Shown here: piece by piece, positions 4,735 through 53,319 of the stretch
Numbering within the stretch: position 1 is the stretch's first letter
Layout: each line of letters begins with the position of its first letter
Notes under the pieces: model-generated
The model's input: the letters and a program-made list of their open reading frames with translations, nothing else
Told to the model about the DNA's origin: nothing
The model's database searches: none
Source of the DNA: Treponema sp.
GTDB taxonomy: Bacteria; Spirochaetota; Spirochaetia; Treponematales; Breznakiellaceae
DNA length: 53,319 nucleotides
Reading direction: 5' to 3'
Assembly: GCA_009785215.1 (NCBI GenBank)
Contig: WQWU01000009.1
Span: 1-53,319, forward strand
Translations under genes and position numbers: made by a program

Positions 4735-5655
4735 TTAAACATATCTTGCTGTATATTTTCTCACAAAATCACAAGGACGATAAGTCATCTTTGCCTGGCG
4801 TAAACCTTCATTGCCCAAATCCTGTTCACGGTTTATAAGTGAGAAAAAATTAGGCAATGACGCGGCAAACGATTTGTTTACAAATTGATATATACCCCTG
4901 TATTCATCAATTGCTTTTTCAAAATGAACGGCAAACATCTTTCCTCTTGAAAGGCTTTCTCCAAGGCAATACGCGGCAGGTTTACCATCAATATAAAAAA
5001 CTGAGCCTCTCAAAGTTAGAGTATCAAAAAGCTCCAATGCTTCTTTTGCAGCTTTATAATCACCGTCATCACCTCCGTTTCTGGCGGAAGAATCAATACG
5101 CCATTGCTCTAAAATCTTTAAAGCATCCGGAATCAGATTGGAAGTCATAACCATTTGTTCATGATTGGGATAAGTATTTAAAAAATTATTTACATGATTT
5201 TTCTTTTTATGGAATTTTTTTCCGGCTAATTCCGCCAAATCCCGCCTATTATAAAGATAATCAAAATTATTTCTGTCTTCCGATACTTCTACGCCGTCTT
5301 TTTTTAATTCTTCTAAAATATTTTTTTCCTGGCATTCTTTTAGAATTGTTTCAGAAATATTTTTCCAGTAATTATGGGTTTTAAATAATTCTTTTATTAA
5401 ACCGGTATCCGGCGCACAGCAGGGAGTCATAAAAAAAGTTTTTTCTCCATCCTGATCTGGCTGCACTCCGGAAATAATAAAACCGCCGTTTTCTCCTTCG
5501 CGGGAAATCTGATAATTGTATTTTTTGCGGAACAGATAAAGCCCGGAAAAAGTAAATTCGGAAACACCGTCAAAAGTAAGGGAAAGCCTTGGGTGTAAAA
5601 TTTCTTTAAGACTAACATCCAGAGGAACAAAATCGGGGTAACATGGCACTTTCAT
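4735..5655 (-). CDS. DUF2156 protein, similar to the C-terminal domain of lysyl-phosphatidylglycerol synthase
   Basis: A 306-residue soluble protein of the DUF2156/LPG_synthase_C family with a double GNAT-like fold. The recognisable block is DYLYNRRDLAELAGKKFHKK followed by NHVNNF, with later GSVFYIDGKPAAYCLGE and a Y-(R/K)GIYQFVNK segment. In MprF the same fold moves an amino acid from tRNA to phosphatidylglycerol, but stand-alone members have no established substrate and this one has no membrane segments. ATG overlaps the stop of the AI-2E permease gene by 4 bases, so the two are translationally coupled. An acyl- or aminoacyl-transferase role is plausible but unproven. Confidence 0.8.
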   Translation of the reverse strand: MKVPCYPDFVPLDVSLKEILHPRLSLTFDGVSEFTFSGLYLFRKKYNYQISREGENGGFIISGVQPDQDGEKTFFMTPCCAPDTGLIKELFKTHNYWKNISETILKECQEKNILEELKKDGVEVSEDRNNFDYLYNRRDLAELAGKKFHKKKNHVNNFLNTYPNHEQMVMTSNLIPDALKILEQWRIDSSARNGGDDGDYKAAKEALELFDTLTLRGSVFYIDGKPAAYCLGESLSRGKMFAVHFEKAIDEYRGIYQFVNKSFAASLPNFFSLINREQDLGNEGLRQAKMTYRPCDFVRKYTARYV

Positions 5656-6767
5656 GATTGTGTTTCGTTTTTATCATGCTCCGTTTTTTTTGCCATGACA
5701 GATTTACGCGAACCTATCAATATGGACACCGGCTCCATAATGGGAATGTATTCGCAGACAATTTTGATAATTACAGTCATGGGAACTGCAAGAAGCATTC
5801 CTGCAAATCCCCAAATATAACCCCAAATAGAAAGCGAAACAAGAATAATTAAAGGAGAAATCCCGACATGATCCCCGATAATTTTTGGATCAAGGATATT
5901 ACTAAGAATTAGGTTTACAATTAATATTACAGCTACTACAAAAATTACAGGGCCTGGCTCCGGCCAGAACTGAAGCAATGCAAAAAGTGATATTACAACA
6001 CCGGCGGCAATACTGCCAAGCGTTGGAATAAAATTCATAAGAAATTGAATTACACCCCAGACAATGGCAAACTCTAGTCCAATAAGATAAAAAGCGACAG
6101 AGTAAATAATACCGTTTGCAAGAGAGAATAAAAACTTTGCGCCCAAGTATCGTGAAATCTGATTTATTATTTCATTTCCCATGTTATCGATGCGTTCTAT
6201 GCGGTTTTCAAATGCAGTTATCAGTTTTTCCCTAAAAAACCCTGCTTCAAAAAGGAAAAATATAGTGAATAAAACAACCAAAACCGCGCTTGATGCAAAT
6301 TGAAAAGAAATATTAGACAGCGAAATAGTCGCGTCTCGGACAAAACTGCGGATAGCTTCCTGATCCCACAGATTCTGCCAAATGCTTAAAGCTTCGTCAT
6401 TTGGAAGATCGAACAAACTGGCAGCCCAGTCGTATATAAGTTTAAAACGAATTTCATAATGATTTTCATTTGCCTGAAATTGTTCAAAAATCATTTTTCC
6501 GGATGTAAAAAGAACCATGCCAAAAAGGTACATTCCCGAAACAATAATAGTAACAACTAAAAAAATTGAAATTGTGCGGGGGCATTTTATATTATCCAGT
6601 ATTTTTATCAGCGGAAACATTACAAACGCAAGTAACGCCGAAATGGTAAAAGGCAGGATAACAGTAGACGCTATTTTTAATACAGCAGCGGCAATAATAA
6701 TGCAAATGAATACCATCATAAAAAAAAGAGCGCGGCCGGAATGAAATGTTCTAAAAACTTTGTTCAT
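5652..6767 (-). CDS. AI-2E family transporter (UPF0118 permease)
   Basis: A 371-residue polytopic membrane protein with about seven or eight hydrophobic segments: two at the N-terminus (about 12-55), one near 65-85, one near 155-175, and a C-terminal cluster (about 210-350). The segment LMNFIPTLGSIAAGVV and the later NILDPKIIGDHVGISPLIIL are typical of family PF01594. Members export small molecules or act as Na+/H+ antiporters; the AI-2 name does not prove quorum signalling. First gene of a likely operon with the DUF2156 protein and rlmB. The 190 bases before it hold a predicted opposite-strand RNA. Confidence 0.88.
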   Translation of the reverse strand: MNKVFRTFHSGRALFFMMVFICIIIAAAVLKIASTVILPFTISALLAFVMFPLIKILDNIKCPRTISIFLVVTIIVSGMYLFGMVLFTSGKMIFEQFQANENHYEIRFKLIYDWAASLFDLPNDEALSIWQNLWDQEAIRSFVRDATISLSNISFQFASSAVLVVLFTIFFLFEAGFFREKLITAFENRIERIDNMGNEIINQISRYLGAKFLFSLANGIIYSVAFYLIGLEFAIVWGVIQFLMNFIPTLGSIAAGVVISLFALLQFWPEPGPVIFVVAVILIVNLILSNILDPKIIGDHVGISPLIILVSLSIWGYIWGFAGMLLAVPMTVIIKIVCEYIPIMEPVSILIGSRKSVMAKKTEHDKNETQS

Positions 6768-6810
6768 ATATTCAGTATGTCATAAATCCGGGTGATAGAC
6801 AAGAAAGTCC

Positions 6811-6839
6811 TTGCCCCCGGTAACAGAAATTACTATGTT
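6811..6839 (+). promoter_or_regulatory. Predicted promoter of the small RNA
   Basis: TTGCCC (6811-6816), exactly 17 bases, TATGTT (6834-6839), each 4/6 to sigma-70 consensus. The start point would fall near 6846. Confidence 0.4.
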
Positions 6840-6845
6840 TATATA

Positions 6846-6959
6846 GACTGATGCTGCGTCTGGATACAATATCCAAGCTGATGAGCATTTTGTGTTTGTA
6901 CTTGGTGCACATCAGAGCCTCCCGGGTTTCCTCACCTCCTTTTCCCGGGGGGTTTTTTT
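6846..6959 (+). ncRNA. Predicted small RNA with an anti-Shine-Dalgarno sequence in its terminator loop
   Basis: This plus-strand stretch lies between two minus-strand genes and has no frame of its own. It shows three successive hairpins: TGGATA-caa-TATCCA (6861-6875); CTGATG/CATCAG extended by GCA/TGC around an A-A mismatch (6878-6915); and a 9-bp GC-rich terminator stem (6918-6926 with 6944-6952) followed by seven T. The 17-base terminator loop contains TCACCTCCTTT (6932-6942), identical to the conserved 3' tail of 16S rRNA that pairs with ribosome binding sites. Such a loop could bind AAGGAGGTGA-type sites in mRNAs, as C-rich loops do in several known sRNAs. RNA existence is predicted from structure and position only. 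Confidence 0.55.
6918..6959 (+). terminator. Rho-independent terminator of the predicted small RNA
   Basis: Stem CCTCCCGGG with CCCGGGGGG (one G-T pair), 17-base loop, then T7. The T-run is only on the plus-strand side; its last bases overlap the stop codon of the minus-strand gene at 6958. Confidence 0.75.
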
Positions 6960-7947
6960 ATAACTGGAATCTTAGACCAAGTGTAAAGCCCAAACCGCCG
7001 TCTCTTACATTGAGCATGCCTGTAAAATCGAGTTTTATCAGAGCCATGTTAAGGGAGAGCCCTCCGAAAAGCCGCATATTCCAATCTTTATCTTTTATTA
7101 TTTGTTCAAAACCTGTACTGGTTATATTGGTAATTCCAAGCTGCTTGATAAAATTTACATAACTGTCGATAGATTCTCCGTCATTAACAGAAAGGTTCGA
7201 TTTAACCTGATAACCGGCTTTTGACCAGGCATAACTTACACCTGCTCCGGCATACGGAGTAATAATAATAAGCGGAATGGAAATCTGAGCTTTTAGTTCA
7301 AGCATATTTGTTTCCCAGATAAAACCCAAATCCGGGTTGGAAATGTTCAGAGTATTTCCAAAAAAGCTAAAACTTTGTCCATAACCTTTAAGAGTTTTTG
7401 AAAGTCCGCCTTCCAACCGGTTATAACCCAATCCGATAGAAGCTTTAATTGGTAAGATACCTGGTTCCAGAGAATAACGTATGTCTGCGCCAATAAGCTG
7501 ATACCTGATATTCATTCCATCAAGTGTTTTGGCTAATAGTTCATTTTCATTTAAAAAGCCGAATTTTACGCCAATATCAAAAGGAAGGAAGAGCCCGCCG
7601 ATTCTGCCTTCCATAACATATGCAGGAAGCGGAAGACCAACAGCCAGAGACGGTACATTGATATTGAACAAATCTGTAAGACCTTTTAGGGAAGTTACCG
7701 GCATAGTTGTAGCGCCGGCAGCAATACCAATACCAAAATGCGGCGGTATGGATGGAAACAATTTTCCAATATAAGCATCTGACCAATTAAGTCCGATTGT
7801 TGAATTAAACGGCAGTGACTTTAACATAGCGCCGGAAAAGTCATTAACTTTCTTTGATAAATTTTCTATAGTAGCCTGAGAAAAAACCGGAGCTGTTATC
7901 AAGAAAAAGATAATTGTAAAAAAACATATTATTTTTGTATTTTTCAT
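6958..7947 (-). CDS. Predicted outer-membrane beta-barrel protein
   Basis: A 329-residue exported protein. The first 23 or so residues form a signal peptide (MKNTKI, hydrophobic core, then PVFSQA with likely cleavage after S or Q). The mature part is rich in alternating hydrophobic strands, glycine and aromatic residues and ends GLGFTLGLRFQL, the terminal aromatic strand pattern typical of barrel proteins inserted by BamA. No cysteine lipobox is seen. I recognise no named family; similar exported barrels are common in treponemes. The gene starts 120 bases before the SRP RNA in the opposite direction, with GGGGAAATT before the ATG. Confidence 0.65.
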   Translation of the reverse strand: MKNTKIICFFTIIFFLITAPVFSQATIENLSKKVNDFSGAMLKSLPFNSTIGLNWSDAYIGKLFPSIPPHFGIGIAAGATTMPVTSLKGLTDLFNINVPSLAVGLPLPAYVMEGRIGGLFLPFDIGVKFGFLNENELLAKTLDGMNIRYQLIGADIRYSLEPGILPIKASIGLGYNRLEGGLSKTLKGYGQSFSFFGNTLNISNPDLGFIWETNMLELKAQISIPLIIITPYAGAGVSYAWSKAGYQVKSNLSVNDGESIDSYVNFIKQLGITNITSTGFEQIIKDKDWNMRLFGGLSLNMALIKLDFTGMLNVRDGGLGFTLGLRFQL

Positions 7948-8067: not shown

Positions 8068-8181
8068 TGTCCAACGTCAGGAACCGTGCGAGCATGCGCC
8101 GCCCAACCCCGTCAGGTCTGGAAGGAAGCAGCGGTAAGCGAATGCCTGCTGCGCCGCGGAGCTCCTGACGCTGGACACTTT
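8068..8181 (+). ncRNA. ffs: Signal recognition particle RNA, small bacterial (4.5S) type
   Basis: A rod-shaped RNA of about 110 bases closed by TGTCCA-CGTCAGGA at the start and TCCTGACG-TGGACA at the end. The apical part contains the universally conserved SRP domain IV core CAGGTCTGGAAGGAAGCAGC (near 8111-8133) that binds Ffh. A short T-run follows at 8179-8182. It forms the RNA part of the particle targeting membrane proteins to SecYEG. Location just before dnaX is a common bacterial arrangement. Confidence 0.95.
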
Positions 8182-53198: not shown

Positions 53199-53319
53199 GT
53201 GCGCCTAGCATGGGCGATAACTTGGCGGTGAGAGTCCGCTACACGGATTGCAGTAGGAAGTGTTAGCCAAAGGCAAGGGTGTCCATTGCGAGGTGGAATC
53301 TGAAGGAAGCCAGAGGCAA
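53199..53319 (+). mobile_element. Group II intron, 5' end (domain I), cut by window edge
   Basis: Starts with GTGCGCC, the usual group II 5' splice-site pattern, followed by the recognisable domain I sequence blocks CAAGGGTGTCC, GAGGTGGAATCTGAAGGA and AAGCCAGAGGCAA that I know from bacterial introns with LtrA-type reverse transcriptase/maturase. The reverse transcriptase frame and domains II-VI would lie beyond the window. It begins 4 bases after the terminator T-run. Confidence 0.78.

Follow-up and report, generated by a model that had tools for sequence, protein, structure and literature searches.

The window considered here is the whole analysed stretch of 53,319 nucleotides from a Treponema sp. 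contig (WQWU01000009.1, assembly GCA_009785215.1), belonging to a genome bin of 1.9 Mb that is 75% complete. A predicted small RNA (sRNA) gene was located on the plus strand in a gap of 190 bases between two minus-strand open reading frames (ORFs; 5652-6767 and 6958-7947), where a reading of the bare sequence (hereafter the sequence-only reading) had placed it. Its parts were as follows:

6811..6839, plus strand: putative promoter, with -35 TTGCCC (6811-6816), a 17-nt spacer and -10 TATGTT (6834-6839)
6846..6959, plus strand: predicted sRNA of about 114 nt, placed on the basis of fold, blastn matches and promoter, with a likely start 6-7 nt past the -10
6848..6915, plus strand: 5' domain, closed by the P1 stem CTGATG...CATCAG, its interior differing among relatives
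6916..6954, plus strand: intrinsic terminator hairpin with a stem of 11 bp
6927..6943, plus strand: open terminator loop of 17 nt, TTTCCTCACCTCCTTTT
6932-6942, plus strand: TCACCTCCTTT within the loop, the same as the 16S rRNA 3' tail of relatives
6953..6959, plus strand: terminator T run

Elsewhere in the window, a bacterial small SRP RNA was seen at 8075-8173, upstream of a dnaX-like ORF (labelled by inspection), and a group II intron starts at the window's end (53282-53319).

RNA folding closed the 5' domain, formed the 11-bp terminator stem and left the 17-nt loop entirely open; the loop was likewise unpaired in all seven further folds covering the hairpin (eight were made, and that of L183 did not cover it). 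A fold as stable (z = -3.13) was reached by none of 200 shuffles. The three stacked hairpins described earlier were an approximation of what is a branched 5' domain followed by a terminator, and the strong terminator was borne out by the GC-rich 11-bp stem running into T residues that characterizes intrinsic termination (6916..6959). A generic terminator scan, which covered loops of 3-8 only, returned partial stems at this hairpin. Membership of a known RNA family was rejected, as Rfam 15 gave no match at the gathering threshold for 6846-6959 (best sub-threshold model atoC, 17.4 bits vs 50) or for the sRNAs of 20 relative loci. A protein-coding reading was also rejected. Among 75 loci (the window and 74 relatives), an ORF of at least 30 aa spanned the loop in 64, that of the window having 103 aa on the plus strand, and an ORF of at least 150 aa did so in nine, which was counted against the sRNA reading; these ORFs differed in length, frame and strand between loci, and no conserved ORF was seen.

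Conservation of the locus was gene-like. A blastn search with 120 bases returned matches in 19 of 23 congeners (two each in G010, G011 and G016), none in congeners G002, G003, G012 and G014, and none in 15 genomes from the order's other genera. When one locus per matching congener was aligned, the second copies being left out, changes affected 0 of 323 loop positions vs 32 of 342 stem-arm positions, in a set for which blastn itself favours loci with a query-like loop. The hairpin conservation that the sequence-only reading had asked of related spirochaetes was thus found in the genus, with the loop unchanged in all 19 aligned loci. An exact 21-base scan of a species-genome collection yielded the 74 relatives mentioned above, all with spirochaete record titles, whose loop identity is circular because the loop formed part of the query; the same scan of a viral collection yielded 0 loci. 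According to their records, these relatives comprised Treponema, other spirochaete bins and Breznakiella homolactica, most of the bins presumably originating from termite guts, as their names led us to assume.

A stem kept with its loop lost, the pattern held to speak against the proposal, was unseen in the window's genus. Across the family's remaining genera, bases in the 5' part of the loop vary and TCACCTCCTTTT is retained, the loop reading TTTC[C/T/A]TCACCTCCTTTT or TTTT(T)CTCACCTCCTTTT. The string TCACCTCCTTTT was present in all 10 hit-bearing genomes of the family within the phylum sample, although CCTCCTTTT formed part of the search pattern and only TCA is independent. Six second copies in the family were more variable, with CCTCC in one (L251), CTCC in four (L250, L252, L254 and L255) and neither in L253. 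Within this family, R2, a model of the terminator, gave no strong match in G012 (94% complete), G329 or five g18 genomes. Since some congeners and family genomes were without a blastn or strong R2 match, in a survey that includes incomplete bins, the sRNA is probably not essential.

The stems covaried. Over P1 and the terminator together, both-sided changes affected 11 of 17 pairs and 97.4% of cells paired among 66 aligned transcripts (alignment A1, drawn from the 75 loci after leaving out three without a promoter call, five of outlying length and L064). These values were reached by none of 500 shuffles, the structure having been derived from the same alignment on which it was tested. In the terminator alone, seven of nine stem pairs showed both-sided changes and 100% of cells paired among 22 sequences (A3, used for R2), a figure partly due to selection, as eight of the 30 sequences of A2 had been left out, most of them out of register (L095, L104, L114, L115, L117, L119, L122 and L124).

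The promoter, judged fair by the sequence-only reading, was weak in the window and unlisted by a generic scan, but its counterpart in relatives, with which it aligned, was strongly conserved. The element CTTGACC-N17-TATNTT, following an A tract, was recognized in 72 of the 75 loci (TTG-type -35, TA...T -10, spacing of 17-18 bases), a count based on one scan-picked promoter per locus that includes an apparently wrong pick in L064; columns outside the selection were also conserved, such as a C ahead of TTG (68/71). The three loci without a call were L075, whose upstream sequence is missing, and L044 and L055, in which weaker likenesses were seen by eye. Neighbouring genes changed from locus to locus: where a long ORF lay on each side (61 loci), the orientations were (-,-) in 23, (+,+) in 14, (+,-) in 13 and (-,+) in 11. 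The AI-2E-like ORF of the window (labelled by inspection) was found upstream in 23 of 74 loci and other neighbours in fewer. A conserved promoter, covarying stems and an unchanged loop amid changing neighbours give good support to an sRNA gene with an anti-Shine-Dalgarno (anti-SD) loop.

The 16S rRNA 3' end reads ...GGATCACCTCCTTTCAC in four genomes, namely that of Breznakiella homolactica (G415) and three of the window's family. The loop shares 11 bases with this tail, so that the identity noticed from the sequence stands for the 16S rRNA of relatives. The comparison with the organism's own 16S rRNA, suggested at the same time, could be made through these relatives, the window's bin having yielded no 16S 3' end. 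The sole other TCACCTCCTTT in that bin is the complement of the SD site of rpsU, the gene of ribosomal protein bS21.

Related hairpins were scattered over the phylum. Of 392 phylum genomes, 130 matched model R2 at E<=0.01 and 68 at E<=1e-5, the latter distributed over the family (10/17), the rest of the order (23/94), the rest of the class (28/103) and other classes (7/178). Outside the family, 54 loci were read (20 from model R1, 20 + 14 from R2), and 52 had an anti-SD-type terminator loop (CCTCC in 51, TCTCC in L170; L121 and L258 without one); both models had been trained on anti-SD loops, and these loci show existence, not frequency. Several carried a second ACCTCC upstream (e.g. L172, L176, L183). 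The outside-family loops retain only (A)CCTCCTTT, the flanking 16S bases being lost. The pattern GGTTTN{0,6}CCTCCTTTTCC occurred in 42 of the 392 genomes and its reverse in 10 (15 places); the counts were 29 vs 5 genomes inside the class and 13 vs 5 outside, where matches are less secure. As a measure of background, R2 gave nine matches at E<=1 in Breznakiella, and the six read included, besides the sRNA, four ordinary hairpins (22.5-29.4 bits) and one with a partly anti-SD loop, TCACTCCTTT (L161, 33.5 bits). On pSymA and pSymB, R2 gave 0 matches at E<=1, a weak control in which no candidate passed the first look. The shorter anti-SD loops on related spirochaete hairpins suggest an old strategy of the phylum.

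A second kind of terminator RNA with an anti-SD or CTCC loop was encountered along the way (L250-L252, L254, L255, L161 and part of L107-L126, L168-L187 and L259-L267). A TGT(A/T)AC motif, possibly an ECF-type promoter, often lay some 50-105 bases upstream; L161 apart, TGTAAC was present in 19 of 55 upstream stretches vs 2.7 expected from mononucleotide shuffles.

Candidate targets were sought through the complement of the loop. Of 23 genomes searched, 22 had between none and four copies of the full complement AAAGGAGGTGA, and G024 had six. Among the loci read, this complement lay ahead of rpsU in 9 of 15 genus genomes searched, the window's own included; these nine rpsU genes start with TTG in eight cases and with ATG in G011. 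In the window's genome, AGGAGGTGA was found four times, namely at the complement of the sRNA, at rpsU, inside a long open frame and at one other place. A depletion of SD sites caused by the sRNA was rejected, the reversed control of AGGAGGTGA being found twice. Predicted duplexes of loop and rpsU reached -18.6 to -19.1 kcal/mol in nine genomes of the genus, vs a median of -9.1 for the best start of each of 381 sampled genes, only one of which attained the rpsU level; these energies leave out the cost of bending the loop. Pairing of rpsU with the 16S tail was stronger still (-20.8 to -27.7 kcal/mol, with a tail string from another family). The broad AGGAGG targets envisaged from the sequence became less clear, with AGGAGG before the chosen start in 22 of the 381 genes and AAGGAGGTGA in none; the target prediction pointed to rpsU, outside the window, as the best start-site complement in the genus.

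In 28 of 30 other spirochaetes, GG(A/G)GGTGA was seen by eye at rpsU (exceptions G048 and G234), and the extended SD was kept in all five g18 genomes without a strong sRNA match. As it is present where the sRNA was undetected, the sRNA is not the reason for which the site exists, and rpsU is a candidate only, albeit the foremost one in the genus. Co-evolution of loop and rpsU was rejected outside the family, where the loops of other orders do not track the site. Among 22 genomes searched, rpsU was not found in four, and two of the 18 rpsU starts were not located.

By eye, 20 of 30 spirochaetes outside the family (L220-L249) appear to start rpsU with ATA, ATC or ATT behind a very strong SD, the remainder using CTG, TTG, GTG or ATG. 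Most sRNA-bearing relatives read have TTG or GTG (ATG exceptions G011 and G171), and the five g18 genomes without a strong sRNA match (G324, G361, G367, G383 and G396) have ATG, an association that is weak because it concerns one clade. The ATA, ATC and ATT starts recall infC and suggest a control of bS21 based on the start codon.

Taken at its simplest, the locus would encode a stand-alone, trans-acting sRNA whose terminator loop occludes strong SD sites without Hfq, which we consider probable. A sigma-70-type promoter and an intrinsic terminator of its own would start and end transcription of the RNA, the terminator loop exposing a free anti-SD, UCACCUCCUUUU, as the seed. The partners of this seed would be extended SD sites of the strongest kind (AAAGGAGGUGA or close to it), rpsU presumably foremost, and pairing would keep 30S subunits off such mRNAs, repressing their translation. 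Hfq was found in none of 39 genomes, the window's own included, by a search whose control was positive in 5 of 14, so that action without Hfq is probable. Occlusion of strong SD sites appears to be the most economical mechanism; sequence data do not discriminate between pairing with mRNA and a role as ribosome-tail decoy.

Another explanation can be based on proteins. The loop could mimic the 16S 3' tail and titrate a protein that matures or binds the ribosome (Era or S1/bS21, for example) instead of pairing with an mRNA, as the 11-base identity with the tail of relatives and the constancy of TCACCTCCTTTT in the family would allow. However, the 16S flanks have been dropped outside the family, and GAUCA, the part of the tail read by Era, is missing even from the window's loop, which makes this explanation quite improbable. 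It is also conceivable that the RNA is a dedicated regulator of rpsU, its loop being tuned to the one start site that it complements perfectly over 11 bases, and that it sets ribosome composition. The AAAGGAGGTGA before rpsU in 9 of 15 genus genomes and the four occurrences of AGGAGGTGA in the window's genome agree with this, as does the autoregulation of bS21 through an extended SD described for Flavobacterium (PMC9976891); the same extended SD without detectable sRNA and the indifference of the loops of other orders do not, and such exclusive dedication seems unlikely, if less so than protein mimicry. The hairpin might finally be a plain strong terminator with a passive loop, given that ordinary terminators of this lineage also have GC-rich stems. 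The loop nevertheless changes least while the stems drift with compensation, a dedicated promoter precedes the hairpin and upstream genes often run in the opposite direction, leaving this possibility with very little probability.

A loop that occludes strong SD sites would have parallels elsewhere. The alphaproteobacterial 'cuckoo' RNAs alpha-r14 and NfeR1 (123 nt, Hfq-independent) are of similar length and combine an ultraconserved, unpaired anti-SD with differing stems and a sigma-70 promoter (PMC10746234). As described there, they carry CCUCCUCCC in three hairpins, whereas the window RNA, from another phylum, shows UCACCUCCUUUU once, in the loop of its terminator. A constant motif on varying stems is shared, and the likeness would be one of working principle only; the loop reads UUUCCUCACCUCCUUUU and only the terminator bears an anti-SD, which speaks against membership. 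The streptococcal csRNAs of the CiaR regulon are short, number two to six per genome and have sequences that complement an SD site or a start codon (PMC3091779). Sixteen csRNAs in that report have a termination stem-loop only; in the pneumococcal ones the complementary stretch lies unpaired between two stem-loops, not in the terminator loop, and promoters are activated by CiaR, whose TTTAAG direct repeat was absent from 6700-6860 of the window. In Neisseria, the conserved single-stranded anti-SD stretches of NmsRA/NmsRB repress translation; these RNAs, again from a different phylum, have two such stretches, one linking stem-loops 1 and 2 and the other within the loop of the second (PMC5362039). 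Maps of spirochaete sRNAs exist for Borrelia (PMC10319736; PMC5216591), and a literature search judged by titles and abstract openings found no spirochaete anti-SD sRNA.

The window RNA would extend the anti-SD strategy of alphaproteobacteria, streptococci and Neisseria to another phylum, in a very simple form and in genomes that yielded no Hfq. It also provides a short seed that can be tested, together with a ranked target. More speculatively, and with a probability that we regard as low, it may represent widespread spirochaete RNAs that use a terminator hairpin as a free anti-SD in genomes where Hfq went undetected and throttle extended-SD mRNAs, rpsU (bS21) first. If so, this class of spirochaete RNAs would tune which ribosomes get made.
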